DNA from: Paramacrobiotus metropolitanus
Taxonomy: Eukaryota > Tardigrada > Eutardigrada > Parachela > Macrobiotidae
DNA: 64,000 nucleotides
Assembly (NCBI RefSeq): GCF_019649055.1
Contig: NW_026570317.1
Location: 124,001-188,000 of the forward strand
Direction: 5' to 3'
In this document: positions 26,670-60,861 of the stretch, in pieces
Layout of the letters: each line of letters opens with the position of its first letter
Numbering within the stretch: the stretch's first letter is position 1
Translations under genes and position numbers: made by a program
The notes under the pieces: model-generated
Seen by the model: only the letters and a program-made list of their open reading frames with translations
Database searches by the model: none
What the model was told of the DNA's origin: nothing

Positions 26670-26680
26670 TGGTAGCAGAG
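26670..26680 (+). other. Primer binding site, initiator-Met tRNA
   Basis: TGGTAGCAGAG directly follows the 5' LTR and is complementary to the conserved 3' end of animal initiator tRNA-Met (CTCTGCTACCA) over 11 nt. Confidence 0.8.
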
Positions 26681-31921: not shown

Positions 31922-31961
31922 GACCCGACCCTAAACCACCGGATAAAAGGGAAAGGTCACC

Positions 31962-40482: not shown

Positions 40483-40534
40483 GTAGCAGAGCATACCCTT
40501 CAAAAAGAGTCCTTTTTCGAACCACCTCTGCTAC
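40483..40534 (+). repeat. GCAGAG hairpin copy with perfect 9-bp ends
   Basis: GTAGCAGAG (40483-40491) pairs perfectly with CTCTGCTAC (40526-40534). The right half includes TTTCGAACCAC, the invariant part of the family. CTCTGCTAC is complementary to the element's own primer site. Confidence 0.7.
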
Positions 40535-41088
40535 ATGAAGTTAATGAAGAGACCAAAGGTCACCAAGACGGAGAGAAACCAAATAAGAAGAGAGGAAGAA
40601 AAAGGAAAGAAGATAAGGACTTCGAGAAGGCAGTTACAATTAAGCTGAACGCAGAAGCTGGAAATTTGGCAGAAAGGTCACTGGAACAAGATAACGAACC
40701 GACCTCTAAAGTACCAGAGCTTACCTCCAAAAAGGACTTGCAACAATCCTTTTTCGAACCACGCACTGCTACCGGAGATAAGGATGACCTTTCGAAACGG
40801 CGAACTGGCGCTGAGATATCAGAGCGTGACCCGAATTTTTTCGAACCACGCACTGGTACCGGTAATGAGGACGACCTCATAAAGAGGAGAAAAGAGGAGA
40901 TAGAGACGGTCAAATCAAAAGCTGAACAATTGGGCCGTGATATAGCGAAAGCAATTAACGAGCGGAAAGTCAAACAGAAGAAAAAGAAACCGACCCCTAC
41001 GGACTTATTGACCCAAAAAGGCGAACCTGAGGATGCAGCCGAGAAGGAACTTCTTGATCGGATAACTAAAGGACGCGAGAACAAATAA

Positions 41089-43886
41089 CCCACATAAATA
41101 TGAATAAGGGGTTCAATTCGCTAAAAATAGAAGTTCAAAAGGTGTAAAATTCATACGAAGTACACCAGCCAATCGTTTTCGTTGATAGTGGAAAGGTCAC
41201 CAAACTCTGACGAAAAGTCATCAAAAATGTTAAAAGGTCAAAAGGTCATCGAAACGGACACCAGAAAGGTCATCATAGATGAAAAGTCAACAGGAAGGTC
41301 CTCCAGTCGAAAGGTCATCGGACTCGGACTGAATTATACGAAAGTAGCGAAAGGTTATCGAAAGGTCAAGATACTCCGACCGAAATCCAAATGGAACAAC
41401 GAAAAGGACACGAAAGTCCGGAATCTTCAGAAATTGTCGTCCAGTCGAAAGGTCATCGGACTCTGACTGAAGTACAAAATGAAGTGCAAACAAACGTCGA
41501 TCGAAGTAAAAGCGGAAGAAGTGAAAGGTCAATCGAAAGGGTAAGAGACTCCGGCGGAAATCCAAATGGAACAGCCAAAAGGTCACGAAAGATCTGGATC
41601 AGCAAAAATGAAAGGTCATCAGACGAGGTTGTGAAGCCGGATCACCGAAAACCATAAGGTCAAGCGACTCACTTACCAATAGTTAAGCGCAAATGAACTT
41701 AAAGGTCAAATGTCAAATGAACCAAGTGTCAAGTGAAAGGTCAAGTGACAGACCGACTGAAGGTCACGGGACTTTCACAGAAAAAGACGAACAGTTTAAA
41801 GGTCAAGAGACGTCTGGAACCGTGGAGAAGGAAGCGCAACCTAAAGGTCAAGAGTGTTCCGTGTCTACGGAACAATCGAAAGGTCACGGGACTTTGAAAG
41901 AAGGTGGGAAAGAAAAGGTCATGCTCCCCATAGAAAAAGCGGCAGTAGATGCAGAAGCGGACTCCGCGCGACAGGTGGTTTAAAAAAGTCGTTGTTTACA
42001 CTGTTGAAAGATGGTTCAGCGACGGAGAAACCGAAAGGTCAAAAGATTCTACTGACGACCGAGAAATCAAAAGGTCACGAGAATTAGCCGCAAAAAGAGA
42101 AGACTGACGAACCGAAATTGACTCAGTCTTCGTTCGGATCATTGGCGAGATAGACAATCGATGAGAAACAGAGTCAGGAAACCGAACCAACGGACTCGGC
42201 ATTCCCCCAGAAACCGGATACGTGCGGTACATCAGCGAAATGAAAAATGCTGCCAGAGCACAACAAAATGCGTGGAGAACGGTCATAACTCATGCGACAT
42301 TGCATAGAATATGTCGAACAAATGGAACGACATGACCCTTTGAGTTACAAGGCTGTGAACTTCGAACTGGAAGAATTTTGTAATCGAATAATGGCGAACA
42401 GATCAGAAACAGTTGAATGTTAATTAGTTATCGCCGGAGAGCTTGTGTAAACGTCAAAAACGTGAAAGGTCACCATTTGAGAATGAGTTTAATAATGCAA
42501 CGTGAAAGGTCATCACGTTAAGGTACTGAAAAGGTCATCAGAAGTGACTATGAGGGTTAAGTATAAAGGTCACGTAACATATCATTGAAACTGTATTCGT
42601 GTATTTGTTGTTTGCAGCGTTTATAGCACCGAATCAGAAAGGATAAAGAAATCATGTGGAATACTATTGGGGTTGAAATTGATTCGGTCCATAAAGCCGG
42701 CCCCAAGGGAGTAGTTACGGCAGTTAGCCGGCTCTCCTCTCTAAGCGACTCAGTGTTATAAATGCACAAGAGAAACTACGGTAATCAAGCCGGATCTCTT
42801 GAATACGAAACGGGGCCACAAGCGGCGAAAAAGAGAAAGACAACAGGTGGAATATTGATGAGGTTAATTTAATGCGGCAACCAGCCGGCCTCATTAGAGT
42901 TGTTACGGTAAACTGTGCCGGCACTCTTTTTAGGCGATTCAGTGTTAGAATTAAAACGAGAAAAACTACGGCAACCAAGCCGGATTTCTCGTAATAACGT
43001 AAACCACAAGCGGCGAACAAGAGTAAAAGATTTAAGGTGGAAATTTCATGGGGTAAACTCAATGCGGTAACTAGCCGGCCCCATCAGAGATGCTACGGTA
43101 ACCTTGCCGGCACTCTGGCCGCTCGAGGCATATTGAAGTTGGATGTGCGACGGAAAGGTCAAATCAAGTCTTTACCAGGGAGGCAAGCAAAGAAGTGCTT
43201 GAAGCCGCAGAAAATCGGCTAAGTTCCTCCATGACCTTTAACAGAAGTTTTGACGAGTGGGATGACCTTTGGGATCATCAATTGCCCAACAGAGTCACCG
43301 TATCGGAATTCAAGTCGCATGACCTTTGGGACCATTAACCCAAAACGAGTCGCACATCTCAACGGATCATCTCAACAAAGGATGACCTTTACTAGGGAGG
43401 AAGCGAACTACGCTTGTCTTCATTGACGTCCCTCCATGACCTTTATTGGATCTCATTTTGAAGTCGTACGAATGATACGCACCATATTCCAAAGATTGAA
43501 GCAGTATTCCTAAGTCGTACTTGATACGCACCTGATTCTCAAGCGGATTGTGATGAAAAGTCGCATTATGGATGCGCAGGATTGCTCAACAGAGCGGAAT
43601 GGGCCAATGTGCGGCAAACGGTGGACAGGACCTGTGACCTTTGCGAGTCAGAAATGGAGGATCCTAGTCTACAATTTGATTAATACTTTTGTTGATCTGT
43701 TCCTAATGATTTGATAGTATTTTTATAATTGGATCTCTTTATTTCACATTGTATTAAACGGAATTGTGCCTTTACGGAATTGATGTGATAAAATGGATTA
43801 AGAGAATTTGATGTTCTTGAGCACGCACAGACACCGGCGACCGTCGTTTTCGTGGATTCGGGAGTGTGTCCAGCCTCACAGGAGCT
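41089..43886 (+). other. Long octamer-rich non-coding tail of the 17.9-kb element
   Basis: No long frame. From 41190 to 42560 about 23 AAAGGTCA octamers were counted by eye. From 42690 to 43130, three or more units pair TTACGG or CTACGG with GCCGG and are separated by CCACAAGCGGCGAA. A block near 43460-43535 matches the giant element's tail. The stretch lies where the giant element has ORF3 and ORF4. Confidence 0.6.
42197..42211 (+). repeat. Internal copy of the 3' junction tract
   Basis: CGGCATTCCCCCAGA resembles the LTR-abutting CGGCATCCCCCCAGAGGCA 1.7 kb downstream. Confidence 0.5.
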
Positions 43887-43905
43887 CGGCATCCCCCCAG
43901 AGGCA
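43887..43905 (+). other. Conserved tract at the 3' LTR junction
   Basis: CGGCATCCCCCCAGAGGCA abuts the 3' LTR, as in the giant element. It is the likely plus-strand primer region but is unusually pyrimidine-rich. Confidence 0.55.
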
Positions 43906-44251
43906 TGTGAGCGGGGGTTCACTAACGTTCACGTCCGCAACGCTACGCCACCGGATTACGTGTCTGTGTTGTGTCTCTTTTGATTGGCTTGAGTTGTGTT
44001 AGTGGGCGCGGCATAGCACGTGCTGCACAGTGTTACACACTGTTGAATTGGCTCTCCGATTGATGTGTGTGCAGTTGTCAGTCAGTTGTGGGATTTCTGT
44101 TGTGCAGACTTTCAATATTATTAAAGTCAGCGATTACGGTGCGACGTTTTGTGTTTCCGCATAGTTCGCGATCCAGGTCGTATCGCTCACTCCACAGGAT
44201 AGATTCTGTTTCTGTCTCTGTCTCTAGATCCATTCTGGATCTAGCATTAGA
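43906..44251 (+). repeat. 3' LTR of the 17.9-kb element
   Basis: 346 bp, reads the same as 26324-26669 by eye, and is followed by the TSD copy CCTA. Confidence 0.93.
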
Positions 44252-44255
44252 CCTA

Positions 44256-46200
44256 GAATAAATTAAATGTGTGTGTGCATATTACAGTGCGTCCGTTAGT
44301 TAATGATTTATCTACGTCATAAAGAGATAATATTAGTTCTCGTACACCTTTATAATCTGGAAAGTGTATTTCTTGTTGCGATTTCAAAATGCAAAGTGGG
44401 TGCTTGTGTTTGCTTAACATAAGAATAAGGACATTAACAGGTATAAGACTCCGCCAGCAGTGCTGTCGTTGCTGTCTTCCTCAATGAAAATGTTAAGTAA
44501 ATGCGCAGTCGCCAGTCTGCGGCTTGCAGGTATTATCATTCTTTAAATTCAAATCACTCAGTTAATTGTTCAACACTTGACATATGCGCTGTCTACTAAG
44601 TATTGAATAATAAGCAATGTATTGCAGTTGACATTGTCATTATACGCTATGTAATATGTAAGTACTGCAATTAAGCAAAAATTCTGCGCGTTGAATTAGA
44701 CACAGTTTCAATAAAAATACTGATTAAATTATAATTGCGATGGTTGCTGCCAGAAGCCTGCATCCGCCAGTATTACCGTATTTGAACCGAAAGTGATACG
44801 TAAAGCAGGTATAATCTGAGGCCGCCAAGCGCTCATTAAGCTCAAGGATATCACATTTCAAAGTTGTGCGGGTTCGGCAGATCTATTGACGCTCCCATAG
44901 ACAAAGCATAGGCTCGGGTCGTCAGGCCTGTTTATGCAGTTCGTCAGATCTATTGACGAAAATCTACTTCCCTGACGGGCTAACATGTAGATTATCTATA
45001 ATCAACTGATTGATATATCTGCCGGCTAGATATTGATAGCTGAGTCTTGTGTCCGCGCCTTCCAATGCAGTATTAAATGGGTGCTGCAACTCTGTTTAGT
45101 AGACGAAACTGTCACAGATTACACTCAGAATCAGTGCCGCTCACGATCGAAGCGCGGTAATGCGACGGTATTGTAAAAGCGTTCCATTCCTGCATAATGG
45201 CTGCATTCAGCTAAGAGCTGGCAATCTGCAGAAATCGTTTGATTTCTGATGACACAAATGTCATGACACACACTGAAAAGCTAAACTAACTATTCTGTCA
45301 CTCTTGATAAGCGCGGCGTAAAACAAGCATGTTTGACGAAGGTCCGGTATGTGTCATAAAAACAACGAAAATACAAAAATTCGTTGTGTATCGTTCAGGT
45401 TTTCTCTTCAGTTGCGACTAATGCAAAAAACTGATGTGGCAAAAGTGTTTAAAGCTGTTGGGCAACAGGCCTGCGGCCGTAGGGCTGAGTCAGCCTCTGA
45501 CTACTAAAGTCAGAGACAGATTATCAAAATTCGGGTCTTTTTCATTTTTATCGTTGTGTTAGGGTCTTTTTAATTTTAGATTCTTAGTTTCTTGGATTTC
45601 TTAGGCTTTCTAAAAATAAACAAATCACCCTAAGAATTCCAAGGAACGCAAAAAGCGCAAGAAACCTAAAAAAGATTAATAAGTCTTAAATGGCTAAAAA
45701 AATGTTTTGTCTGTACGAGTCAGGCTGCAATGCCACGGGGGGCGCATTGTCCACTGACGAATGTGGCGCATGTAACGGTGACCGCATAATGTGCCAAACA
45801 CCGGCTTAAAGTCCTCAAAGGTTTCAATTACGCCCAATAGACTGTAAGACAACGAAAAAGTAAAAAAACCTGCGCTTGATTCTGGCAAACAAAGAGCGCT
45901 TCTGGTTATAATTTTTTATGTATCTGTGCTGTAGATACTGCAGATGTAATCGGTGTGCAATATTTTTTATTCTGTTGTTTTCGTTTTTTATCTTTTTTGA
46001 CAAACCCTGAGCGAACAATCGGTACGCACTTGGTTCGGTATCCCTCGTACTAAGACGCGTTAAGAATGCTTTTTTTTTATAATCAGGGTTCATCATACCT
46101 GACGTGGACCATGCACATGCACGCCTTCAAGAGTTTAAGGTTTTTTGAGTTGTTAATAACGAGAAAAGTGGCTTCCTTCATAATTTTGATTTTTTAATTT
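44256..46200. other. Right interior of the 9-bp-TSD transposon, no gene
   Basis: It contains the inverted subterminal repeat 44872-45028. A 90-codon minus-strand frame (45824-46096, KR-rich, starting MMNPDYKKKAFLTRL) has no recognised domain and may be chance or a relic. Confidence 0.45.
44872..45028 (-). repeat. Inverted subterminal repeat, right copy
   Basis: Inverse of 23538-23700, ending CTGCCGGCTA. The core CAGATCTATTGACG occurs twice. Confidence 0.65.
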
Positions 46201-46306
46201 TTAACAGTTGCCCCGTTTTATCGCTTGCCAGAACGCGTAGTGGCAAGTGCCACTGCCGGTGGCAGTTGCCAGTGGCAGGTGCCACTGCCACCTTTTATCC
46301 CCTGCC
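46201..46306 (-). repeat. Right terminal inverted repeat of the 9-bp-TSD transposon
   Basis: Inverse of 23313-23430. It ends CCTTTTATCCCCTGCC and is followed by the TSD CTCTGATGC. Confidence 0.88.
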
Positions 46307-49300
46307 CTCTGATGCTGAGCGTGGTTCGAAAGTATGAGAATTGCGCTCTGCTACTTCTTTAGTAGCTTGTGACCTTTCATTTTCGACCGCTGCTCTTTCC
46401 GAGTGACCTTTCTCATCTTCTTGATCTGGCAACGGTGGGTGCCAGCGCTTTAATCGGTCGACTGAGACGACTCTTACATCTGGTTCTTTCGTTGCTTCCT
46501 TCCTTTCCGAGACCGAATGAAGTTGAAGTTCAATAACTTCAACTTCATTTGGCCTCGGGAAGCTAAGGATTTTCCAGACTTTGTCATACTTTTTCTTAAA
46601 GTCTGCTTGATTTTCTTTCTTTCCTTGCTTCGTGTCTTTTGGAAGTCTGATCAAGACGCGGTCGCCGACTTTGAATTCCGGTTCCGACTTCTTTTTATTG
46701 TATATTTCAGCATGCCTTTCATAGGCGTCCTTGATATTGCACCTCGCAACTTCCTCTGAAAAGGTCAAGTTCTTTTTCATGGTCTCCACCCATTCGTCTG
46801 GAGTACCGTAATCGTCGGGAACGTTCGTCTTTGTGACGACATCTTCCGGCATGGTCATTTCTCTGCCGTGCAGCATGAAGTATGCTGAATATCCCGTCGT
46901 CGCATGTACAACGCGATTCATTCCCGATACGACGTATGGAAGATATTTATTGAACTTCCTCTCATTCCCGGCTTTCATATATTGAGACAGTCCATCGCTG
47001 ATGGTTTGCATCTGTCTTTCGACTTGTCCTTGACCTTCGGGATGATACGCCGTTCCAAACGTGTGTTTGATTTTGAACACGTTGGTGACCTTTTTCAAGA
47101 CTTCAGCTGTGAAGTGTCTTCCGCGATCCGTATGGAGTATATGTGGCGCTCCATGTACCAAAATTACGTGCTTCACAAAGACCTTTGCAAATTCTTTTGC
47201 CGTAGCCGTTTTCATTGGCTCCGCTATCACGTACTTCGTCAGCTGGTCGATGAAGACCGCAATGTACTTATATCCTTTCTTCTTTGTTGGAAGTAGAGGT
47301 CCTTTTAGATCCGCATAAACTCTGAAGAATGGATGTCCGACTTTAATTTCTTGGAGCTTTCCAGGCGGACATTTTCTCGGTGTCTTTCGAAATTGACATC
47401 CTTGGCATGCGAGGATGTAGTTCTTTACATCCGTGCTCATTCGGTCCCAGTAATATCTGAGCCTGATTGCGGCCAAAGTCTTTTCAAAGCCGAGATGACC
47501 TGCTGCCTTTTCATCAGGCAGTGCATGAATGATAGCCCTTCTCATTGGCAGCGGTACAACATACGTCCTTTCAAGTCTGCCGTTCTTATCTTTGACGCGA
47601 TACAGTATGCCGTTCCATAACTGGTAATGCGTCTCGAACTTTGACCTTTTATCTGCGTCTTGCAGATGCTCCAATTCATCAATGATCATCGCTAGATGCG
47701 GATCTTTCAGCTGTTTATTCCGAAGTTGCAAATTTGAGTCATGCTCTTCTTCTTCGTCTCCTTGAAGATTGACGATGCGAACTGTCGCAGTACTGAGTTC
47801 ATTCCAATCTGTGATGACCTTGCATCTTGGAAGAGGCTTGTGACCTTTCTCAATCGTCTTCGGAAATCTTAGCAGTCGTATTGGACACTCGTCCGGTATG
47901 TACTCGGCGAGGACTTTTGCTTCAGAAAGGTCATTCTGGTCTGTCATTCTCTGACCGAGTTTCGTGACCTTTGCATCTTTTTGCTTTAGCGTCTCTTTCC
48001 TCACTCTGTTGACCTTTATCTTGGTAGCAGAGCGGGGTTCGAAAGTAACCTTTGAATTACGCTCTGCGGCTTCCTTAGCGAGCTGAGGATTCTTTCTCTC
48101 CGACATTGCCCTTCTCATGTCGGCTTTGAGCCTTTCTTCTCTATCTTCTGCTAATTGCACGAAGAGTTGCCAAACTTCAATCGGAGGCTCTTCTCTGTTC
48201 AGCTCATTCTTGTAATCTTCGAAGTTCGGGATTTCGTCATACTCTTCTTCATTGCAAGTGGGACCTTCAATCGGCGTTCTTGACAGTGCATCTGCGTTGT
48301 CGCAGTACTTGCCTGGCTTATACTCGATCTTGAATCGGTGACCTTGTAACGCCAATGCCCATCTTGTTAATCTTGGGTTCATTCCCGACTTGTTCGTTTC
48401 CGACCTTAGGAGATTCGTCAATGCTTGATGATCTGTCCTTACGGTGAATTCGGAGTAGTCGATGTACGACTTGAACTTTCTGACAGCGAAGACTACTGCC
48501 AGGCATTCCCATTCGGTAACTCCGTAATTCTTTTCAGCTCCATGCAAAACGCGGCTTGCGTATGCGATGGGATGTCCATCTTGGGACAAGACTGCACCAA
48601 GCCCTTCCTTTGATGCGTCACACTCGATCACTGTCGGCTTTGACGGATCGAATTTCCTCAGCACTGGATCCTTGCACAATGCTTCTTTAAGGTCATTGAA
48701 TTCTTGGTCGTGGACTTCTGACCAGTCTCTCTTGATATTCTTGTCGTGTCTTAGCAGTTCATAAAGATGTGCTGTCTTTTGCGCGTATCCAAGGATAAAC
48801 TTCCGGTAGTAATTCGCTAATCCGAGGAATGACCTCAACTGCCGTTCAGTTGTCGGTTTCTTCTGATCATAAACTGCCATGACCTTTTCAGGATCCATTC
48901 TGATGCCATTCTCACTAAGGATATGCCCCAAGAAACCCATTTCGCGCATGCCGAATTCGCACTTCGTTGGCTTGATTGTGAAGCCTGCGTCGACTAAACT
49001 TTGAAGGACGTTCCTCATATTCTGCATGAAGATCTCCCAGGTCTTTCCTGCGAAGATAACGTCGTCGATGTAGCCGAAAACGCATCCCATTCTCTTAGCG
49101 TTCGACAAAACTTTATCCATGCACAGCTGAAACGTTGCTGGGCCATTGCATACTCCAAAGGGCATTCTTTTAAATCTGAACATCCCATCTTGGGTGACAA
49201 AGGTCGTCTTGTCTTTTGAGGCTGGATCCATTGGGATCTGCCAGAAGCCACTTTGCAAATCCATCTTGCCGTAATACTTGTTGCCTGCGCATGCGTCGAG

Positions 49301-52300
49301 CAGTTCATCTGGATTCGGCAGTGGGTAGTTGTTCTTCTTCGTAAGCTTGTTCAGCTGAATGTAATTGACACAGAACCTTGTTCCCATGGTACCGTCACCA
49401 TTTTTCTTTGCGGCCAGTACGACCGGGAAACTCCAATCTGCATCAGACGGTTCAATGACATCTTGCTGCAACATCTCTTCGATGTGCTTCGTGATGAATT
49501 CGCGACCTTTCCAGCTAGTTCGTGCTGGGTTGCATTTTACTGGCCTTGCGTCGGCTGTGTCAATAGTGTGCGTTACCCCTTTGACATCGCCGTACGGTTT
49601 CTTTGATGTTGGCAAGACCTTCCAGAACTCCCAGAATGCATTTCGTACATCATTCTTTTGTTCTTCAGTTAGGTCTGGTCCTAACTTGAGTCTTTCGATG
49701 ATATCGTTCAGTTCTTCTTTCGTCTTTGCGTCGACATTCGGATCATTAAGTACATCGGCGATTACCGCCGCGTTGACCTTTACACTCTCCATGTGTTCAT
49801 ACGGTTCAACGTAACCGAGGAATTGGCCCTTCCTAATTCCCATTCTCTTTTTACTTCGGTTAGCGACGACGATTTCAAATCGATTCCCTTTATGATCCGT
49901 CACTCCCGTATACGGTTGGACGTCTACATCCTTCTGTAGTGTCGCTGTGAACATCAGCTTTTGAGTTCTTGGGGCGTATTCCGCCATCTTAGTCTTGACG
50001 CGGGTGCAGACATTCGGTCTGATCTTGATTCTTTGATCGCTATAGACCTTGATTGCCCCTTGAGGGATTCTTGCTCTCTGCACTTTTATTCTTCTGACGA
50101 CGATTTCTTTTTCTTTTTCGTCATCCTTATCATCGTCTTCGTCAAGATCCATCAAATCTTCTTGTTCGGAAAGGTCATCCACTCCTGAGTCTTCTGAAGT
50201 GGTTGAATCGCCACTCGTACTTGACCAGTCCGAGTCAGATTCACTGCTACCGTTCTCTTGCAGCATCTGACCTTTACTTCGATCCTCTTTCGGTTGGTCC
50301 ATCACGCCTTCATCTTCACTTGACGTTGAAAGGTCATCGCTTTCATCCTTGGAAGCGCTAAGTTTTTTCGTTTTCGATTTCTCGGGCAGAGGTTTGCCCG
50401 TTTCCTTGGACTTTCGTCCGTTTCGTGCTGCTATCCTTGGATGAGCTCGCGTTGCGCGGATTCTTGCTCGTGACCTTTCCTTCTTTTCGTCTGAGGCAGA
50501 TCGTGGTTCGAAAGTATTGTGAGAGCCACGGTCTGCGTGGTCTGACCTTTCGTCGATTTTATGAACTGACCTTTCTGGCTCTTTTTCTTGCAGCAACTCT
50601 TTGAGTGACCTTTCATTCTCGATTGGTGGACATTCCTCACCATCATCGAGTGACCTTTTGAGTGACGCTACTAGCGCTGCTGCTTTCTTCTCGTTTGGCG
50701 ACATTTTAGCCTCAGTTGCTTCTGTTACTGGGATTCGTGCTTCTTGATCCCGAAACGCTTGGTTCAGTTCCTTAATCATCTGGGACAATTCGTATGCCGA
50801 CGGTGACCTTTCTCTGTCATCGTCATCTTGGACGTCTTCTTGAACGGCGTTTATGCCGATATCTTCTTTTTCTTGTTCTTCTTCGGCGCTTGTACTGTTA
50901 TCCTGCTCTTTTGCTTTTTCTTCGGCGCTTGTGCCGTTTTCTTGAACGGCGCTTGTGCCGTGACCTTTAGGTCTTTTACCGCCGACGAAGACGCAATTTG
51001 CCATCAACTCTTCAGTGACCCAGTCGTCGCTTGGTTTTGTCTCGTACATGCACCATGTATCGCCGCCTCGTTCGGGATACTCGACTCCATCTGGGTCCGG
51101 TGCAAAGGTCACCTTCTTCTTTCCAGGATAACCGAATGGTCCTGGTGGGCGTCTTTTCCTTGTGACCCTTAGTTCTGGCACTTCGCCGACGATCGTCGGA
51201 ACTTCTTGCATAATCTTTGTCCATTGTTTGTTGAAGGGTTTCAGGCTTCCATTCTTCAGGCATTCCTGGTAAAGGCCAAACAGCTCGTACACCGGTGTGC
51301 CGAGTCCGATTGGGAAAATCACGACTCGTCCTTGACCTTTCCATAGATAATTCGTTCGGAATTGCCAGAATAATTCAATTCTTTCCGCTTCCCATAATTC
51401 GTTTTCTTCCATAGCTCGTCGCCGTTCCTGATCGAGCTTGGATACAGGTTCAGTGTAATAAGGATCGCTTTCGTCCACTTGACCTGGGATGTGATTATCA
51501 ATTTCCTGCTGCCAATGATGGAGCCATTTTCCTCTGGAGATGATGTAGTTTTTCACTAGAGACAACCATTCTCGATATCTTTGCCAGAGGTAAGCTGCTT
51601 TTGGCAACTGCTCCATTGGAAGCGTCCTCATGATTGACTTCGTTTCAATCCAGTCGCCTCTCTTGAGACTTGCAATTGCGGCGTTGCATTTCGGCCATTC
51701 CGAAAGGTCATCCTGCCTTGCTTCTTGTAAGCACTGGATGCACTTCTCCTGCGGCTGTACTTTCGAAAGGTCATCTTTCCAATCATGATCACATGCCGTT
51801 GCTCTTTCTTCAGCTGTCCATTCAATTGGTTTCGGTTGGACGCTAAGGTCACCCTCGTCTTCGGTATCCGTCCAGTCGCGGTCACACTCCATTTGGATGG
51901 CGCTGTGGTCCGATGACAACTCGATGACTTCTATTTCTTCATCCGCAGAGCGTGGTTCGAAAGTAGCTTTTGAACTACGCTCTGGTTTATCTTTTCGGGA
52001 GCGTGAATCTTTCAACTGCTCTATAGCTTTCTCCCGTAAATCGTTGAATAGCGCTCTTTCGTCACTATTCATCAGTCCCGTTTCTTTCCTGGGCTCTACC
52101 TTTTTCGTGCCCGGTGCCTCTGGTACTGGGATTAGCTTCGACCACTCCAGTCCAGGGACTAATGCGTCTCTCTTCGCAATCAGTGCTTCAGCTTGCATGA
52201 TCTTTATTTGTTCCATAGTCGGGGACCTTTTATTGCCTTTCATCTTCGGTGACCTTTCACTTCTTTTTGACTTTTCTTTGCCCAGTGCCTCTGGTACTGG

Positions 52301-54799
52301 GATTAGCGTATCACCAGTGTCTTTTTGCTGTTGACCTTTCGATCCCTGTGCCTCTGGTACTGGGATAGCCGTTTGCCCCGCTTCATTTCTTGGCTGAAGT
52401 TCGGTGACCTTTCCTGCGTTAACTTTCGCAGTGGATTTCGGCTCATCATCTTTTTCCTTATCTTCATCTTCATCGGCGTCTTCGTCATCCGTTTCATCTC
52501 CGTCTATTAAGACGAACTTCTTTGCAAGGAAATCAAATCCAAGCAAAACCTGGACGTCATCTGACGCTGGTCTGACGTAGAAAGAGTGTTGAGTTGTTTT
52601 CCTTCGTAAGGTCACCGGCGCTACGCAATAGTGCGTTACTTGAAAACCTGAAGTTCCGCTTATTCCTTTGATCATCACCGTCCTCTTTGGCGGTAGCGGT
52701 ACAGTCTGGAGGCCATTCCTCTCGCAGAACTGTTGGCAGATCAGAGACGTCTCTGCGCCTGTATCAAGCATTGCCATGACCTTTACGTTCCCCACTTTGA
52801 CTTCATGAGTCAGCGCTTCGATTCGCTTGGGCGTGTTTCCATCTTGAAGTTTCAACACTCTGATTCTGCAGTGGACTTGAATTGGGTCACTCGATCTTGG
52901 GTTCATACTCTTTATCGGTGACAACTTGTCGATCCTCTTTGGAACATCCGGTCGGACGTCATAAAATTCTCGGATCCTCTTTCCGGATGGTACGTCACGC
53001 GCTTGCCCCTTCGCAGCGTTATTATCTTCCGTGACCTTTGGAACTTCGCGCACTTGCCCCTTCGCTTGCGCGTTTTGGTTGATGTCTTTTGAACTCAACC
53101 GGTCAAACCTCTTCGGAACGTTAGTTCTAGCATCGTAAAATTCCCGAATTTGTCTTTCAGGTTGCAAGTCACACGCCTGCCCCTTCGCAGCGTTATTTGT
53201 GACCTTTGATGCTTCGCACATTTTCTCCTTCGCTTGTGCGATTTCGTGACCTTTCGTCACTTCTTTTATGACTTCGTATCTTGACCTTTCATCTTTGGAC
53301 GGTTTTTCTCGCAACTTCTCGATTATCTCTTGCGTAATGCGATCCGCGAGGGTCATCTCATCGTCTTTGTCTTCCAGTTCTTCTGGTGACCTTTCGTAGA
53401 CGATCATCTTGTGATCGTTTTCGTTCATCCATTCTCTGAATTTCTTGTTTATTTCTTCGGTTGGATCGACTTGTGATGATAATCCGTCAGTTGTGGGCGG
53501 TGACCTTTCTTTGTTATTCCGGAGTGCTTGCGCAAAGTCGTATGACCTTTCCTTTTGTGGAATTTTCGCTAAGTCCGGTGACCTTTCTCGTCGAGACATG
53601 AAAAATCCGCCATTTGGTGACCTTTGTAAAGGCACTTTCTCGCCGTATTGCGGCGGTAATTCACCCTTTTCCATCCTTTCTTGAAACTGACGGTTTTCTT
53701 CGTCCATTTTCTCTTTTGCTTCTCGATATTCCTTGACCTTTGGTTGAGAGGCTTTTACGAGTTCCTCGAGATGCTTTCTCGCTCGCCAATCTTGTTTCTC
53801 TCTTTCTTCCCAGTAAGCTTCTCTGGAAATTCTCGCATCTTGCGGTGACCTTTGTGGCAGAGGAACTTGTTTCCACATGCCATGTCGTCTGTAGGTGACC
53901 TTTTGCCACTCCATCTTTTGCTGCAACTTATTTGCTGATTCAAGAGAGTCGTCTGAGACTTGCTGTGCCCCTTCTCCAACTTTCACTGCTTGCTGCGCCA
54001 TTCGCAGAGTCAAGTTACTTTCTTGACCTTTTGGTTCAACGGCGACTTCACCGTGACCTTTCTCTTTCAGTGACTGTTGAGTCTCTTGCACTGGCTGTCT
54101 CTCGTGACCTTTCACTTCTTCTCTCTCTTGAGGTGACCTTTCGGTCTCTTGCGCTCCTTGCGCTGTCACACCCTTTTCGTGACCTTTCTCAGCAGCTTTT
54201 TTCTTCTGGAGTGTTTCTTTCATATGCTCGAAGAATTTCGGTTTATCTGGGCCGTCTTCGTGCGTGCGTCGCACTGTCATAGTTATTCCGTCTTCTTCAA
54301 ACTTCTTTTCGACGAACTTCCGGAATTTCTCGTGATGTGCTTCATCATCCTCTTCTTCCGAATCTGCGGCTTTAACCCTTGCTACTGTCTTTGCGAAGTA
54401 TTTCTTCCTCTTCGTCGTCTCGCTCTCTGTTTGAGGCGGTGACCTTTCGGTCTGCTGTTCTTGCAGCGGCGTCACGTTACTTTCATGACCTTTCCTCGCA
54501 GTTACTTCCTGCGATGACCTTTGGGTCTGTTGTCCTTGCGGCGTCGCGTTACTTTCGTGACCTTTCCTCGCAGTCACTTCCTGCGATGACCTTTGGGTCT
54601 GCTGTCCTTGCAGCGTCACGTTACTTTCGTGACCTTTCGTTGCAGTTTCTTTCTGCTGATCCGGATGCAGAGTTGAGGCCCTTCCGTCAACCCTGTTGCC
54701 CGCAGTTGCTTTCTGCGGTGACCTTTCGGTCAGCCCCGGCTGCGCCAAGTTACTTTCTTGACGTTCCGCAGTTACTTTCTGCGGTGACCTTTCGGCCAA
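46307..54799 (-). CDS. pol: Pol of the giant element, main part
   Basis: About 2830 codons. The same frame is already open from the gag end, where the -1 frameshift delivers ribosomes. Domains by residue from 54799 are: a module-repeat N-terminus (1-650), protease AMLDTGAETSL (~676), an acidic Ser-rich region with IPVPEA repeats, reverse transcriptase with FGYIDDVIF (~1909), RNase H IECDASKEGLG and RTDHQALTNLL (~2053-2160), integrase HHCC (~2426-2465) and the D,D35E core (ADLKGP, HTDRGRHF, GQGQVERQ; ~2486-2640). The frame looks whole up to the nested transposon that interrupts its tail. By family knowledge it matures the particle, copies RNA to DNA and inserts it. The octamer is read as KGH, ERS and KVT throughout. 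Confidence 0.9.
48022..48067 (-). repeat. GCAGAG hairpin copy with a primer-tRNA-like end
   Basis: The sense strand ends CCCCGCTCTGCTACCA, like the acceptor end of initiator tRNA-Met. The + strand reads TGGTAGCAGAG, identical to the 17.9-kb element's primer site. It is translated as part of FEPRSATK. Confidence 0.7.
54496..54784 (-). repeat. Four CGCAG-N7-CTGCG hairpins near the start of pol
   Basis: TCGCAG-N7-CTGCGA occurs at 54496-54514 and 54568-54586, and CCGCAG-N7-CTGCGG at 54700-54718 and 54766-54784. The outer pair switches T-A to C-G together. Each is next to a TGACCTTT octamer. Confidence 0.75.
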
Positions 54800-55002
54800 A
54801 TTCTTCCGTCCTTGCGGTAATCTTTTGATAGCCTTGCCATCACCTTTCAGAGCCCCTTCGCTCGCTTTCGAGTTACTTTCTCGAAGCTTCGGATTTCTTT
54901 TCCGTATCTTTGGTGACCTTTCACCATTCTCTTTCTGCGCCGTGGTCCTTCCCTGCGGCGGAGCACCTTGCTCTCCTATGTCCGGTGGTTTCGGTTCTGG
55001 GC

Positions 55003-55045
55003 GATCAGTAGGCTCACCGGCGCCTACTGACCTTGAACGTTTCCC
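55003..55045 (-). other. -1 ribosomal frameshift signal at the gag end, giant element
   Basis: Sense order: G GGA AAC (55045-55039), 6-nt spacer (55038-55033), stem GGTCAGTAGGC/GCCTACTGATC (55032-55022 with 55013-55003; one G-U pair) and an 8-nt loop. The gag TAG (55026-55024) is in the stem. The heptamer, spacer length and stem are the same as at 31879-31921. Confidence 0.8.
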
Positions 55046-58000
55046 TGATTCATGCCCTGCTGCGGCGCACCTTGCGCCTGGCCGGCACCATTCGCCGGGG
55101 CGAAGTTAAATCCTCCGCCTTGACCACCGAAGTTTCCTTGGCCACCTTGACCACCACCGTTCCACTGACCACCTTGACCAGCGAAGTTTCCTTGGCCGCC
55201 TTGACCACCACCGTTCCACTGGCCACCTTGACCAGCGAAGTTTCCTTGGCCGCCTTGACCACCACCGTTCCACTGGCCACCTTGACCACCGTAATTACCC
55301 TGGCCACCTTGACCTCCGTAATTACCGTTACCGCCTCCTTGGCCCGGGCCGGCATAGCCGTAACCACGGTTACCTCCGCGGCCGAAGCCTCTGCCCCTTC
55401 CTCTGAAGCCTCCGCGAGCCGGGCCATACTGGCCGTATCCTCCGCCTTGGCCACCTTGACCGGCGAAGTTACCTTGGCCACCACCTTGATTTCCGTAATT
55501 GCCCTGGTCACCTTGACCGGCAAAGTTCCCTTGGCCACCTTGACCTCCATTATTCCATTGGCCACCTTGACCTGCATATCGCCCACCTTGTCGTGCTTGT
55601 GGGACGTAACCATTCGCCATCGCTTGCCGCCAACCACCTTGGTTGCGCAGCTGCAGCCATTCCTCATACACAATTCGGTTCGGGTTTTGGTTCCATGGTG
55701 TGCCCGCGAATGAGCATCCTTGCGTGTGGTGGTTGCCGTACATGCAGTTCTGGCATGTCAGCGCGTTATTTGCCACCCATCCATCGATCATCGTGAAGAG
55801 TCTTTCCATTCGCGACGCATATCGGGTAACCTGGTTCCCTTGCTGTCCGCGATTGCCTCTTCCGCCACCGTTGAATCCTTGGCCAGCGAAGCCAGGATTT
55901 GCTTGTGCCATTCCTTGACCCGCGAACCCTCCATTCAGGGCATTTCCTTGCGTATTTCCTTGCACATTCTGTGCTGGTCTAGCCACTTGCTGGGCTGCCG
56001 CTTGGATGGCCGCAATAGTTGGCCTGGTCACTTCTTGGACCGCTTGAACCGCTGCTGCGATTGTTGGTCGGGTGACCTCTTGCACTGCTGTCTGTATCGC
56101 CGCGATCGTCGCGTACGATATCTGACCTTCATTCCGTTCGTTCCGTTCATTGCTAAAGGTCACCTCTTGGTTGTTCATTGCCGGGAATTCCGCATCATAC
56201 CGTGGTGCTTGTGGTGGCGGGGGTTGGTTTTGTCGCCCATTCGCGACTTCTGCCACCTGACCTGACCGAATAACAACATAGTCATCTCGGTTCCGATTGC
56301 CTCGCGTGACCTTATATTTGTCTTCTCCCGCCGACCATGTGTGGAAAAATTCTTTGATGTCCGCCGGAGTCTCGAATGTTCGAGCTCTCATTGCTTTGTA
56401 AAGGTCACTGTCGCTCTTGCATCCGTCGATCAAGAAAGCGATCGCCTGCTTTTCCGTGATCGTTTTCTTTGATTTGAAGCGCATCATCGCTTGATAGAAC
56501 TGATCCAGCGATTCTTCACCAACTTTGAACTTCCTAGCCATTGCTTCGCGTAAGGCGAGGACCCCTTCGTCTCGATCGCCGAACTCTTCCTTGAATTTGG
56601 TCATCCATTCGTCGACCGTCATCTCATCATTCTCTTCTCCGAGGATTTCTCGTTCCCCATCGAACCAGACTTTTGCATCCCCTTTAACCACGTTGGCGAC
56701 TTCGAGTATGACCTCTTCGTCACTCATCCGGAATGCCCTTTTCGTTTCCTTGACTTGGCGGATCCAACCGAGAAGACTGTCTCGGTTGCCGTTGTAGTCC
56801 ACCAGATTTGATTTTCTACCCATCTGCTTCACTATTCCACGGAACTCATATTGTTCTCGTCTTAGACGTTCTTGTTCGGCTCGGAGTTGCGCGCGTTCAT
56901 CCCTTTCTCGTCGTTCTCCGTGTTGTGCGAAACCGTCCTGCTCTGGTTGTTGATCACGGTGACCTTCCGTGTTTTCCGGTTCTCGGTGGACGGTGGTTTC
57001 TTCAAATTGTCGTGGATCATCGCTGTAACTTGGCCCTGTCTGGTGTGATGATCCGCCAAAGAATGGTCCCGGGTACCCCTTCGTACGTTCGGTTGACCTT
57101 TTCTCGGATTCCCTTTTAGGAGGTTCAGTGCCTCTTCCGTTCCCCATTCCTGTCTTTTCGGGCATCTGGAAGGTTGCGCTGAACTCGTGAGTATGAATTT
57201 CGGTAGCGTCGCCGTACTTCGGTGGAGGAGTTGGTGACCTTCCCTGCTTTTGCGGTTCATATTTGCTGAGTTGCTCATCTTTATGTTTCAATGATATTAG
57301 AAGAGCGTTATTCTGATCTTCTAGCTTCTTGACCTTTCCAGAAAGGTCATCTCTTTCCTTCTTAAGGCTGACATTCTCTGCCTTAATGTGCTCCACCTTT
57401 TTCATCTCGCCATGGATTGAGAGGGTTCGGTCATTCTCGCCCTCCTCGTAGGCTTCTTTATCTTCTTTCAACTTCTGCATCGCTTTTTCAAGCTTCTCAT
57501 GCTGCCTTCCAGCTGAGATTAGCTGCTCTTTCACCGTAGCCAATTCATCGTCTCTTGTCATCACCAGAGTCGTCATACCCAAAAGGTCACTCCCAAGCTT
57601 GGCGATGTCTTGCTTCTGCTTGCTGTTGAGAACTTGCCCTTCTCTGTTCTCAACTTCAAGCACCGTGACCCGTTCGTCGAGCAGTTGTGCTTGCGTCTTC
57701 CATCTCTGAGATTCCTTTTTGTGACCTTGAACTTCGTCACTCAACCGCTTGACTTCCGCTTTCGTTTTCTCGCTGAGTTCCTGGAGTTTTTGCGCGGCTC
57801 GATCTCTCTGTTTTTCTGTCTCTCCTTGTTTCTTCTTCCTTTCATTCAATTCCATCTGTAGCTTTTGATTGTTTTCTTCGTATGTCTTGAGATCTTTCAT
57901 TAGCTCCGTAATGTCTGCTGTCAGGCTAGCTACCCTTCCCGTGACCTTTGTTGCGTTTGACAGACATTCATCGCGCTGAGTTTCAACTTCCATGACCTTT

Positions 58001-59112
58001 GACTTCAAAAGGTCACACTGTTCTTTCAATTCCGCTATCTCCCGTGACCTTTCGGCTGACTCTTCGGACAGGCTGTTGTTGAGGTCTTCGACGGCGAGTA
58101 TGCCTTCCAAATCCTTATCGTCAACCATTTTCTTCAGTTCTTCTGCCATTTGCTTCTGCACTTCATATCTGACTTTCCACTGCTGCATTTCATCTTCCAG
58201 CGTGACCTTTTCTTGTTCTAATACGAACACTCTTGGTTCCATTTCGATGGTTTTGTTCCTTTGCTCCCGTACTGCGGCGAATGCTTGCTCATCTTTGTTC
58301 TCGAGTTGTAATTCTAACTCTCGAACTCGTCGCTTCGAATCTGTTGATGCGGGAGTTTTAGGGGTCGGTGACCTTTCGTTGTCAGCCTTTCCTGACGCCG
58401 TTCCCATAAAGGTTTCTTCCGACTTTTCGTTAAAGGTCATCTGCAGGATTTCGTCAGCTTGTTCAGCTTCTTTCATTGCAGTGTGAAATGACATCTGCAT
58501 TGTCTCGTCTTCATCGTCCGTAAAGTATCTTTCATCGTTTGATGCTGGGCTGGTTCCCTTCTCTTCCAGCCTCTTAAAGGTCATCGAGTCATCCGAAAGG
58601 TCATCCGGCTTGACCTTTTCTGCGTCTAACAGCTGATTGCTGTTGACCTCGTCACCCCGTTCGGTGACCTTTTGACTGACTTCGTTCACGCCCTTCTTTG
58701 ACTGATCTGCGTTTTCTTCCTTGACCTTTTCGGCCGACCGTGACATTCCTCCGGTCTCGACCGTCAGGTCTGCTTGAATCTGTCCATTAGCTACCGTTCT
58801 CCCGTCGGTGACCTTTGACTGGTCCACCGTATTATCTCCGTTTTGACGTCCGGAGTTTCCCTTCTCATCGCTCGAGCTCTCAACATTCTGCGTTTCTTTC
58901 AGAGCCTTCTGGTAAGTGGCTTCTGATCCTTTAGAGTCCTTCCTCTCAAAGGCTTTCGGAGCTCGAGTCGTTCGATCGTGTTCCACTGGCCGTGTAAACG
59001 GCTTCAATTTCCTTTTGTAAGGATCACTCGCACCTTGCGAGGAATTCTGAGACCCTTTTCCTTGTGAACTGCCGGTGGAGATCGGTTCATTACCGTCTCT
59101 ATCTTGATCCAT
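55024..59112 (-). CDS. gag: Gag of the giant element, 1362 aa
   Basis: Start MDQDRDGNEPIST. Parts in order are a disordered, Ser-rich N-terminus; a long coiled coil (about 270-640); a helical capsid-like region (about 770-935, DYNGNRDSLLGWIRQVKETK through FHTWSAGEDKYK); a Gln/Ala/Pro linker; the knuckle CQNCMYGNHHTQGC (~1119-1132); and a GGQGNF/RGG-rich tail to the stop. It is unusually long for a Gypsy gag, mainly from the coiled coil and Gly-rich tail. The frame is whole. By family knowledge it forms the particle and binds genomic RNA. The Gly-rich tail may add RNA affinity or phase separation (inference). Confidence 0.88.
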   Translation of the reverse strand: MDQDRDGNEPISTGSSQGKGSQNSSQGASDPYKRKLKPFTRPVEHDRTTRAPKAFERKDSKGSEATYQKALKETQNVESSSDEKGNSGRQNGDNTVDQSKVTDGRTVANGQIQADLTVETGGMSRSAEKVKEENADQSKKGVNEVSQKVTERGDEVNSNQLLDAEKVKPDDLSDDSMTFKRLEEKGTSPASNDERYFTDDEDETMQMSFHTAMKEAEQADEILQMTFNEKSEETFMGTASGKADNERSPTPKTPASTDSKRRVRELELQLENKDEQAFAAVREQRNKTIEMEPRVFVLEQEKVTLEDEMQQWKVRYEVQKQMAEELKKMVDDKDLEGILAVEDLNNSLSEESAERSREIAELKEQCDLLKSKVMEVETQRDECLSNATKVTGRVASLTADITELMKDLKTYEENNQKLQMELNERKKKQGETEKQRDRAAQKLQELSEKTKAEVKRLSDEVQGHKKESQRWKTQAQLLDERVTVLEVENREGQVLNSKQKQDIAKLGSDLLGMTTLVMTRDDELATVKEQLISAGRQHEKLEKAMQKLKEDKEAYEEGENDRTLSIHGEMKKVEHIKAENVSLKKERDDLSGKVKKLEDQNNALLISLKHKDEQLSKYEPQKQGRSPTPPPKYGDATEIHTHEFSATFQMPEKTGMGNGRGTEPPKRESEKRSTERTKGYPGPFFGGSSHQTGPSYSDDPRQFEETTVHREPENTEGHRDQQPEQDGFAQHGERRERDERAQLRAEQERLRREQYEFRGIVKQMGRKSNLVDYNGNRDSLLGWIRQVKETKRAFRMSDEEVILEVANVVKGDAKVWFDGEREILGEENDEMTVDEWMTKFKEEFGDRDEGVLALREAMARKFKVGEESLDQFYQAMMRFKSKKTITEKQAIAFLIDGCKSDSDLYKAMRARTFETPADIKEFFHTWSAGEDKYKVTRGNRNRDDYVVIRSGQVAEVANGRQNQPPPPQAPRYDAEFPAMNNQEVTFSNERNERNEGQISYATIAAIQTAVQEVTRPTIAAAVQAVQEVTRPTIAAIQAAAQQVARPAQNVQGNTQGNALNGGFAGQGMAQANPGFAGQGFNGGGRGNRGQQGNQVTRYASRMERLFTMIDGWVANNALTCQNCMYGNHHTQGCSFAGTPWNQNPNRIVYEEWLQLRNQGGWRQAMANGYVPQARQGGRYAGQGGQWNNGGQGGQGNFAGQGDQGNYGNQGGGQGNFAGQGGQGGGYGQYGPARGGFRGRGRGFGRGGNRGYGYAGPGQGGGNGNYGGQGGQGNYGGQGGQWNGGGQGGQGNFAGQGGQWNGGGQGGQGNFAGQGGQWNGGGQGGQGNFGGQGGGFNFAPANGAGQAQGAPQQGMNQGNVQGQ

Positions 59113-60521
59113 CTTTAGTTTGGTGATCGGATAACTTGGACGATGCTGTCAAGGTTTCTCACACGTGTGTTAGATTATGTTTATGTGACTTTTTACACGT
59201 GAACAGAAACAAGCACTGTCCTAAAGGTCACTTCGTTTTATACGAGCTCAGTTGCTAAAGGTCACTCTGCCTTTAAAAGATCTAAGTCCTTTCTAAAGGT
59301 CACTTTCTACTTCAGAAATTTGACGAAGTTCTCGTAAAGGTCACTTCCTTCAGCAAAACTTAACTCGTAAAGGTCATCAGCTGTTTCAGCTTAACGCTTA
59401 CTCCGAATAGGTAAAGGTCACTTTTTGATTTTAGGAACTTTTTCTGGTAAAGGTCACCAAAACTTTTATCAAAACTGCAAACTTCGAGATATTTTTGGAT
59501 TTTATTTAGGAATTAACAGAACTCAACTTCAAACTTGCGTCAAATCATCAACTATCCAATTTTGGTAGAGGTCATCATTCTCGTCAAAATTTTTCGTAAA
59601 GGTCACAATCTCATCGATCGACTCAGAAAAAAATTTTCAGCTGGCTACGTCACGTTCTTATGTGCCGTGCGCAAATTCTCCGCCTCGTCTCAAAATCTCA
59701 GCTTCTCATTGGCTGATTACAATGCTAACTTTAGCTCATCTGCTGCGCCAATCACAGCGTTAATAACCGACCAATCAGAAACGTTGTTTTTCTATTTTAA
59801 GGCAGAGTGACGTCACGAGGAAAAGTGAAAATTTTCACTAGCGCGCCGTGCGCAAAAGTACCGCCTACTTTCTCGCTCAGCTCATCACCGACCAATCAAA
59901 ATTGTAATTTCTACCTTTGCGCCAATGGCGTAATTAATAACCGAAATTCTGACCTGATCGTCTCCGTGATCCAGAAATCGATCTTGCGCGTCCTTTCCGC
60001 GATTCCTCCAATTCCTCCAGCGATTTAGCTGACTTCTCCTGGGCCAGCCACTAACCCCTTCCGTTTCGTATCAACGGGACGCAGCGGTGCGTCGACCAAA
60101 TGACGTGCTGGCTGCGGGTCTTCTGCTGAGCCGTGGCGTTAGCTGCAGCAGGGGCGCTCGACCACCCTTTTGGGGGAGCGCGTATGATGTGTGCGCCCTA
60201 CTGCCGTAGGGTAGCACCTGAAACTCCACACCCGACAGACCAAAAAGTGGCTTGCCCACTCGTGCCCCCCTTCGGGCTTCTGCCTCTTGTGGCAATCTTT
60301 TTCGGCGCTTGTGCCCCTCCGAGCAGAACTACTGCCGTAGCCCCACTCGCGTCAGATCAGCTTCAGTGCACTCTACTGCCGTAGAGATGCACCTCGTCAG
60401 ATCTGCTGTCGAGATCCAAGCTCCTTCTCCGACTGCTTCGTCAGCGAGCCCTTCCTCGCACACTCCACACACTCCGTCAGCTGGACGGGGAAAAACTTCA
60501 GATTATCCTGGAGAAACACGT
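59113..60521 (-). promoter_or_regulatory. Leader of the giant element
   Basis: Untranslated, between primer site and gag. From 59221 to 59605 eight exact AAAGGTCA octamers (+ strand) lie 30-70 bp apart. From 60190 to 60390 there are three hairpins with the same TGCC loop. The last ~45 bases before gag share CGTCCAAGTTATCCGATCA with the relative. Confidence 0.65.
60196..60386 (-). repeat. Three leader hairpins with covarying stems
   Basis: CCCTAC-TGCC-GTAGGG (60196-60211), CTAC-TGCC-GTAG (60329-60340) and CTCTAC-TGCC-GTAGAG (60371-60386), on the + strand. The second pair from the base changes on both arms. They may be packaging or dimerisation structures. Confidence 0.65.
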
Positions 60522-60533
60522 CTCTTGCTACCA
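60522..60533 (-). other. Primer binding site of the giant element
   Basis: Sense TGGTAGCAAGAG directly after the 5' LTR. The first 8 nt match initiator tRNA-Met, and one extra A separates GAG from the fuller match seen in the relative. Confidence 0.65.
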
Positions 60534-60861
60534 TATAAGACGGGAACCTGAGAAGGTTCACGTCGCAGAATCGGAATTGACGTAATTCCGTCTGCCAAAC
60601 AGATCTGGCAATGCTAAACGTCTAACGCTATGGAAAAGCGAAAAAAAAAGACGTGACTGCGAGAACTTTTTAATCAAGACTAATTTCGATAGAAATTCAA
60701 CATGTGCAACTCTGCATTGCCGACTACGGCAAGCGGACGTAGCTGCCACACCATGCGGTGGCGCTGAGAACACTACGGTGCTGCCTCGCGTAGGCGGGCG
60801 CACAACCAAAACACAACAAACAGCCAAGCGAGGGTGTACGCTGAGTACGCCTGCGCTCACA
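60534..60861 (-). repeat. 5' LTR of the giant element
   Basis: 328 bp, reads the same as 12854-13181 by eye. The outer TSD is GGTG at 60862-60865. Confidence 0.92.

Follow-up and report, generated by a model that had tools for sequence, protein, structure and literature searches.

A nuclear-receptor-like DNA word appears to be maintained throughout the bodies of giant Ty3/gypsy retrotransposons in the tardigrade Paramacrobiotus metropolitanus

The window analysed here is a 64,000-nucleotide stretch of the genome of the tardigrade Paramacrobiotus metropolitanus (contig C97:124001-188000; the genome comprises 169.8 Mb in 533 contigs). It contains two giant Ty3/gypsy long terminal repeat (LTR) retrotransposons, E1 and E2, the latter interrupted by a DNA transposon (D) that itself holds E1. 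One octamer, AAAGGTCA (TGACCTTT on the complementary strand), recurs throughout both, and the sequence comparisons given below support its maintenance by nucleotide-level selection throughout the bodies of one giant Ty3/gypsy lineage. The parts of the two elements, in window coordinates and with the octamers of each open reading frame (ORF) given as sense or antisense to the element, are as follows.

12855..60861, minus strand: E2, giant Ty3/gypsy LTR retrotransposon, about 25 kb when nested D and E1 are excluded, with 120 octamers in 12854-23341 and 46291-60861
12855..13181, minus strand: E2 3' LTR; 0 octamers
13182..14399, minus strand: E2 3' non-coding region; 7 octamers, all antisense
14400..17138, minus strand: E2 extra ORF of 912 aa; 10 sense and 1 antisense
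17452..22704, minus strand: E2 extra ORF of 1750 aa, with a weak C-terminal linker-histone (winged-helix) match; 15 sense
46295..54799, minus strand: E2 pol ORF (protease, reverse transcriptase, RNase H, integrase), which holds most of the stretch under study; 47 sense and 7 antisense
53221..54960, minus strand: the stretch under study; 24 octamers
55024..59112, minus strand: E2 gag-like ORF; 11 sense and 8 antisense
59113..60533, minus strand: E2 leader; 8 octamers, all antisense
26324..44250, plus strand: E1, giant Ty3/gypsy LTR retrotransposon, 17.9 kb long and nested in D, with 95 octamers (68 sense and 27 antisense)
26324..26668, plus strand: E1 5' LTR; 0 octamers
26670..28129, plus strand: E1 leader, starting with TGGTAGCAGAGCC; 11 octamers, all antisense
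28130..31900, plus strand: E1 gag-like ORF, with a coiled coil and a zinc knuckle by eye; 10 sense and 3 antisense
31981..33522, plus strand: E1 ORF of 513 aa; 10 sense
33468..37049, plus strand: E1 ORF with aspartyl protease; 15 sense and 4 antisense
37111..39381, plus strand: E1 reverse transcriptase/RNase H ORF; 6 sense and 1 antisense
39400..41088, plus strand: E1 integrase ORF; 3 sense and 2 antisense
41089..42620, plus strand: E1 non-coding stretch, each frame with 18-27 stops; 22 octamers, all sense
42621..43904, plus strand: E1 3' non-coding region; 1 sense and 6 antisense

Both elements have the features of the Ty3/gypsy group, namely the domain order protease, reverse transcriptase, RNase H and integrase, LTRs that are 100% identical within each element (about 345-347 bp in E1 and 327-328 bp in E2) and 5-bp target-site duplications, read by eye (ACCTA at 26319-26323 and 44251-44255 for E1; GGTGT at 12850-12854 and 60862-60866 for E2). 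Directly after the E1 5' LTR, TGGTAGCAGAGCC is primer-binding-site-like and, we assume, resembles the end of the initiator methionine tRNA. The two closest proteins to the E2 pol ORF are annotated from P. metropolitanus (84% and 83% identity), and the linker-histone match in the 1750-aa ORF (E 0.00025) lies just below Pfam's cut-off; by eye, this ORF perhaps contains two further winged-helix-like stretches. An earlier note on this DNA had described the motif as shared by unrelated elements, but the two retrotransposons are 72.7% identical over 5,117 aligned nucleotide columns and, on this measure, E1 and E2 belong to one lineage.

Three further copies were compared with them, designated A (C1:200001-220000), B (C58:769.5-780k) and C (C1:2196-2213k), of which A and B are parts of elements and not whole elements. 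Off-diagonal and overlapping high-scoring segment pairs were dropped from the nucleotide comparisons; the pairwise comparisons of copies, which overlap, are not independent of one another. Copy A carries about 80 bp in place of the 4.6 kb of E2 that holds the 1750-aa ORF, and about 130 bp where E2 carries 5.1 kb at the place of D. In the leader region of copy A, about 0.8 kb matches E2 in the orientation opposite to the rest of the copy, a local inversion.

The octamer is the commonest 8-mer in the window, with 245 exact copies (3.8 per kb), of which 215 sit in E1 and E2, and it is likewise the commonest 8-mer in each of the five element copies, at 4.35-5.49 per kb. Density reaches 5.3 per kb in E1 and 5.6 and 3.6 per kb in the two parts of E2 (82 and 38 octamers), while the 5,020 bp of D that were counted (23342-26322 and 44252-46290) contain none, the left flank (7591-12853) contains one in 5.3 kb and the right flank one in 3.1 kb. 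Recounting 53221-54960 gave exactly the 24 copies claimed earlier, all of them TGACCTTT on the plus strand and therefore AAAGGTCA in element sense, against a chance expectation of about 0.05 that is also correct (2 x 1740/65536). The eight copies reported in the leader at 59221-59605 were recovered, and the cluster reported at 41190-42560 exists, with 21 copies rather than about 23; both orientations do occur, as had been stated, but with a strong local strand bias.

Background density was estimated from 20 blocks of 10 kb, hand-chosen at roughly regular spacing on seven contigs and not at random. Eighteen of these hold 23 octamers in 180 kb (0.13 per kb); the two octamer-rich blocks left out of that figure (L009 and L013) hold 43 and 41, and both lie within relatives of E1 and E2. 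Across the genome the octamer occurs 42,562 times (21,195 + 21,367) versus 15,522 (7,593 + 7,929) for the reversed octamer, used as a control word, and triple clusters number 1,550 (776 + 774) versus none (0 + 0). Single-mismatch variants are scarce, averaging 1.5 per variant against 68 sense octamers in E1 and 1.75 against 89 in E2 (nested D counted in). Position 1 is the most tolerant, each of its variants having 17-26 copies versus 1.5-2.5 expected.

The earlier proposal that selection acts on the nucleotides and not on the protein is borne out by synonymous shuffles, by comparison at unchanged residues, by the use of permitted positions and by conservation in non-coding sequence. Codon-preserving shuffles did not reproduce the count: within 53221-54799, 23 octamers were seen, whereas 200 synonymous-codon shuffles averaged 4.8 and never exceeded 10, and shuffles of whole codons averaged 0.36 with at most 3. 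In all nine ORFs tested the count exceeds the maximum of 200 synonymous shuffles, for example in the whole of E2 pol (54 seen, mean 6.2, maximum 14) and in E1 integrase (5 seen, maximum 2). Across the ORFs of E1 and E2, 153 of 186 permitted positions spell the octamer, where the codon usage of the individual ORFs would predict 10.2; as this denominator is partly shaped by the octamer itself, the more telling figure is the 33 permitted positions left unused. At 11 other Ty3 loci, which were hand-picked from 150 scored RNase H matches (1,056 candidates) and are counted as loci and not as lineages, 2 of 8 permitted positions spell it.

Where the encoded residues are unchanged, octamers of E1 are intact at 33/34 sites in C (54.6% for other 8-mers), 18/18 in B (35.1%), 16/16 in E2 (20.8%) and 12/14 in A (18.6%), and those of E2 at 28/32 sites in A (41.5%), 14/14 in E1 (20.3%), 9/10 in B (20.0%) and 9/9 in C (20.5%). 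Over all aligned nucleotides, the proportion of intact octamers again exceeds that of other 8-mers, both between closer copies (E1-C 78/93 versus 42.6%; E1-B 13/20 versus 28.2%; C-B 23/28 versus 25.1%; E2-A 57/91 versus 21.7%) and between more distant ones (E1-E2 17/20 versus 10.5%; C-E2 14/17 versus 10.8%; B-E2 21/23 versus 12.3%; B-A 10/14 versus 10.8%; C-A 9/17 versus 11.2%). The bases flanking the octamer vary freely, and of the 81 changed sites in these nine overlapping comparisons a single substitution accounts for 37 and an indel for 26. Conservation extends to non-coding sequence, where octamers are intact at 9/11 sites of the E1 leader in C (38% for other 8-mers), at 5/7 aligned sites of the E2 leader in A (20%), at 5/7 sites of the E2 3' non-coding region in A (31%) and, in the stop-ridden E1 stretch at 41089-42620, at 17/22 sites in C (43%) and 11/14 aligned sites in B (16%). 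Octamer density in the leaders and in this stretch equals or exceeds that of the coding parts.

Within the ORFs of E1 and E2, octamers are oriented 127 sense to 26 antisense. Codon usage outside the sites predicts 92% sense for each ORF, so that no sense preference exists beyond coding constraint; the antisense word introduces a stop in one of its frames and encodes hydrophobic residues in the remaining ones. The base following the octamer (+1) is informative in both orientations, with C162, T70, A80 and G9 among 321 sense sites of the five copies and C61, T58, A9 and G0 among 128 antisense sites. In the window ORFs, G at +1 is scarce at all codon positions (4/127 sense, 0/26 antisense), including first codon positions (2/47), though G is otherwise the commonest base there. 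In contrast, the base at -1 differs between the two orientations. Avoidance of G irrespective of orientation is what a 9-bp duplex site would be expected to show, and the repeated unit looks like a 9-bp double-stranded DNA site in which AAAGGTCA precedes C in preference to T or A, and hardly ever G (in extended form AAAGGTCAC, as against AAAGGTCAG with G at +1). Few neighbouring pairs are spaced 16 bp or less (1/94 and 6/119), which argues for single sites and against dimer response elements.

The earlier note had equated AAAGGTCA with the NBRE, the site of the NR4A receptors, and this match holds. In the available part of one source the NBRE is given as AAAGGTCA, bound by NR4A monomers (PMC4777543), and the preferred +1 base fits the JASPAR NR4A2 consensus AAGGTCAC as printed in the available part of another (PMC9067626). 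Like the word in E1 and E2, the NBRE of these partial sources has C favoured next and is used as single sites and not as dimers; it is known from host enhancers and promoters, whereas in E1 and E2 the putative sites occur about 5 times per kb over 18-25 kb. Among 568 AGGTCA half-sites in the five copies, 449 are preceded by AA, while TCAAGGTCA occurs 8 times and TAGGTCA twice. ERR and NR5A receptors prefer TCAAGGTCA, and ROR/REV-ERB receptors prefer other extensions. The host genome yields 63 zf-C4 matches, among which PDB comparison points to ERR-like (C22) and NR5A-like (C15) DNA-binding domains; they also include three NR4A-like exon matches at C45:296815-298439, with 83%, 76% and 67% identity to the query used. 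Zf-C4 was not found by Pfam in the window ORFs scanned. The winged-helix region of the 1750-aa ORF was also considered as a reader and set aside, having no PDB match and being all but absent from copy A. From the match of the word to the NBRE and from the NR4A-like exons in the genome, we infer that the sites are most likely read by a monomeric host nuclear receptor of NR4A/HR38 type.

We therefore favour, with a probability of roughly 0.45, a reading in which a 9-bp DNA site is kept across giant Ty3 bodies and is read by a host NR4A-type receptor, keeping the long unit open or insulated. With about 100 sites per element, spaced 170-200 bp apart on average, an integrated copy of 18-25 kb would be coated by receptor, and the coat would render chromatin open or insulated from silencing in receptor-expressing cells, making very long transcripts possible; this last step is the least certain. 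Sites would arise and vanish by point substitution, indel and, locally, tandem duplication, so that the array could grow wherever the protein tolerates it. More tentatively, the entire body of the elements in this lineage, with the genes, may have become an array of binding sites for a host nuclear receptor, thereby tying their activity to a stress- or hormone-responsive factor and letting a very long unit stay open from end to end.

Several observations weigh against a receptor-read DNA site of this kind. LTRs are the usual place for transcription-factor recruitment, yet there are no octamers in the four window LTRs or in 1,261 bp of LTR-like sequence from other copies, suggesting that the sites are not simply promoter elements or that binding there is harmful to LTR function. 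Orientation is blocked at both ends: leader sites are antisense in E1 (11:0) and E2 (8:0), the first 14 sites of C are antisense and copy A begins with two sense and then five antisense sites, while 3' sites are antisense in E1 (6:1, the single exception), in E2 (7:0) and, as far as the last 5-6 sites are concerned, in A, B and C. Such blocks are not predicted for an orientation-blind DNA site unless few founders were inherited; leader units do resemble old tandem duplicates, and few founders may lie behind the one-orientation leader blocks. At changed residues octamers are kept less often (E1-E2 11/29; E2-E1 10/48), showing that the array turns over where residues differ. The two sources on the NBRE also print it elsewhere, in the parts available, as AAACCGTA, presumably a slip (PMC4777543, PMC9067626), and the word could have a reader among host proteins other than NR4A. 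In addition, the 11 other Ty3 loci contain just 2 octamers in 12.1 kb, so that the trait is not general among Ty3 elements; ten of these loci are 38-43% identical to E2 pol, and the one at 58% (L042, C37:485101-486200), the nearest octamer-free relative found, has no octamers in 1.1 kb. Finally, there are none in the 2 kb (L052) that follow an octamer-bearing Ty3-like locus, L045. Apart from the question of function, L042 would be useful for dating the gain of the array.

L045 (C1:2893501-2896500) is the exception to the pattern of a motif dense in one lineage and rare at other Ty3 loci. It carries 7 sense octamers in 3 kb, five in the leader and two in gag, a density biased upward by its selection from the triple-cluster list, and was deemed Ty3-like because its gag has a zinc knuckle and an RNase H match lies 4 kb downstream. 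No similarity to E1 or E2 was detectable in the 5 kb compared, its leader octamers are sense-oriented, opposite to those of the E1 and E2 leaders, and a search for further copies of its leader found the exact flank at one genomic place only. Although picked from the cluster list, L045 would make a better case for independent use of the word than the foldback elements described below. Other clusters were noted in passing. L046 (C1:331601-332400), from the same list, packs five octamers into 800 bp and may be either a regulatory region of the host or a further element; C1:2537724-2538368 holds eight copies of AAAGGTCAG at about 91-bp spacing, a satellite-like array of the +1 G form that the elements avoid; and C1:2087584-2087663 is a coding-like repeat in which, by eye, the octamer falls in KGHHGH units, probably a coincidence of the peptide.

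The remaining features of the window lie within or beside these elements.

23313..46306, no strand assigned: D, DNA transposon nested in E2 and itself holding E1, with terminal inverted repeats and a 9-bp duplication; its own DNA is about 5 kb
about 420-3990 and 5266-7590, no strand assigned: two foldback elements whose 21-bp minisatellite unit contains AAAGGTCA; 18 and 9 copies

D is flanked by the duplication CTCTGATGC at 23304-23312 and 46307-46315, its terminal inverted repeats begin GGCAGGGGATAAAAGG (by eye), and it interrupts the E2 pol frame close to the frame's end. The nesting order E2 > D > E1 can be read from octamer density alone. The stretch between the foldbacks has 1 octamer in 1.3 kb. 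The octamer had been described as the core of the foldback minisatellites, and it does lie in the 21-bp unit, but without special frequency or conservation: AAAGGTCA occurs 27 times versus 35, 34 and 33 for AAGGTGGA, ACCTTTCT and AAGGTCAT, and across 41 aligned units the octamer positions match the consensus at 83-95%, as compared with 85-100% for ten of the thirteen others. Its presence there may be a chance occurrence, and the foldbacks were dropped as independent support. The suggestion that two unrelated transposon classes recruited the same factor is thus not supported in that form, E1 and E2 being one lineage and the foldback octamer not being special. A 352-aa ORF with several helix-turn-helix matches lies at 62412-63470 (plus strand), with related sequence at 2-263 and 4030-4197 of the window.

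Among the alternatives, the one that fares best, although we consider it unlikely, is that the element itself encodes the reader of the sites, in Gag, integrase or an accessory ORF, and that the lineage thereby marks its own DNA. There is a precedent in the VANDAL elements of Arabidopsis, whose anti-silencing protein VANC binds to a motif of 9 bp found at high density in its own element family, mainly in non-coding tandem repeats, according to the part of the source available (PMC5735166). On that partial account the two systems share a short 9-bp motif, high density (which seems decisive), restriction to one mobile-element family and one-orientation arrays; they differ in that VANC motifs are mainly non-coding and their reader is element-encoded, whereas of the 215 octamers in E1 and E2 153 fall within ORFs, many differ between element copies by single substitutions and no convincing element-encoded reader was found. 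A self-encoded reader would also be consistent with a dense array confined to the E1/E2 lineage and absent at the 11 other Ty3 loci sampled, and with the linker-histone match in E2. However, copy A nearly lacks the region of the 1750-aa ORF yet has 4.35 octamers per kb, no comparable ORF is listed in E1, and for the element ORFs scanned none of the Pfam matches was to a domain with a specificity of 8-9 bp. Moreover, the word coincides with a known host-receptor site and is carried by the unrelated Ty3 element L045.

It is improbable that the word works in RNA, whether in packaging, export or stability of a very long transcript or because AAAGGUCA and UGACCUUU pair within one RNA. A sense-strand RNA motif was at first favoured for the strand bias, and the strong strand blocks, with leader and 3' sites mostly antisense and the body mostly sense, and the placement of sites in the transcribed body and not in LTRs would suit such a role. 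It was dropped, and the RNA-binding factor raised earlier as an option is disfavoured, as codon usage explains the sense bias of the ORFs and the exclusion of G at +1 is alike in both orientations, which neither a single-strand reader nor pairing predicts. In L045, 7 sense and 0 antisense octamers in the 3 kb seen leave no pairing partners, and its leader orientation is the opposite one.

We give very little credence to a host silencing factor as the reader, with elements merely failing to lose their octamers; many host repressors bind short motifs, but octamers are better conserved than other 8-mers and fill most of the permitted positions, which suggests a benefit to the elements. Slightly less credible still is that octamers are written by mutation or gene conversion and not kept by selection. 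Tandem duplication has multiplied some leader and coding units and 26 of the 81 changed sites differ by indel, but the commonest change is one substitution (37/81), so that sites are not simply pasted in, and the octamer is conserved at 73% nucleotide identity (17/20 versus 10.5%) and at unchanged residues while its flanks vary freely. That selection favours the peptides (KGH, ERS, KVT, DL, TF), with the DNA word as their by-product, is next to impossible, since, although codon composition raises the odds of the sense word somewhat above random, shuffles of E2 pol reach at most 14 against 54, octamers persist in same-residue and non-coding comparisons, and five unrelated peptides spell one DNA word that is equally dense or denser in non-coding leaders and the stop-ridden stretch.

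E1 and E2 have partial parallels among known elements. The gypsy insulator of Drosophila reportedly comprises about a dozen Su(Hw) sites in the leader, and thus would resemble E1 and E2 as a cluster of host-protein sites in the leader of a Ty3/gypsy element; it is said to have a different motif confined to one place, unlike the roughly 100 sites found here through the whole body. A literature search on insulators returned nothing. In the part of the source available, Burro and Ogre are giant Ty3/gypsy elements with extra ORFs, as are E1 and E2, and Burro exceeds 30 kb; LTRs are short here (about 330-345 bp), and that part mentions no word saturation for Burro or Ogre (PMC6431247). The available part of a further source does not name Paramacrobiotus (PMC11071193). 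Within the titles and beginnings of abstracts covered, the literature on retrotransposons and transposable elements, on transposable elements of P. metropolitanus and on tardigrade Gypsy elements does not describe such a word array. We know of no precedent for one binding site filling 153 of 186 permitted coding positions; to our knowledge, host-factor recruitment by elements involves few sites in LTRs, leaders or repeats.

If the favoured reading is true, coding sequence in this lineage would be evolving under two codes at once, with most permitted codon positions building about 100 NR4A sites per copy. Whatever the reader, a single 9-bp site, kept at about 100 places in each copy, dictates codon choice through gag and pol. 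The lineage thus offers a natural quantitative system for the effect of dense transcription-factor arrays on chromatin, for the strength of selection per site and for a DNA-level code that constrains proteins. If the reader is NR4A, the activity of giant elements in a tardigrade would be tied to a receptor of the immediate-early type.

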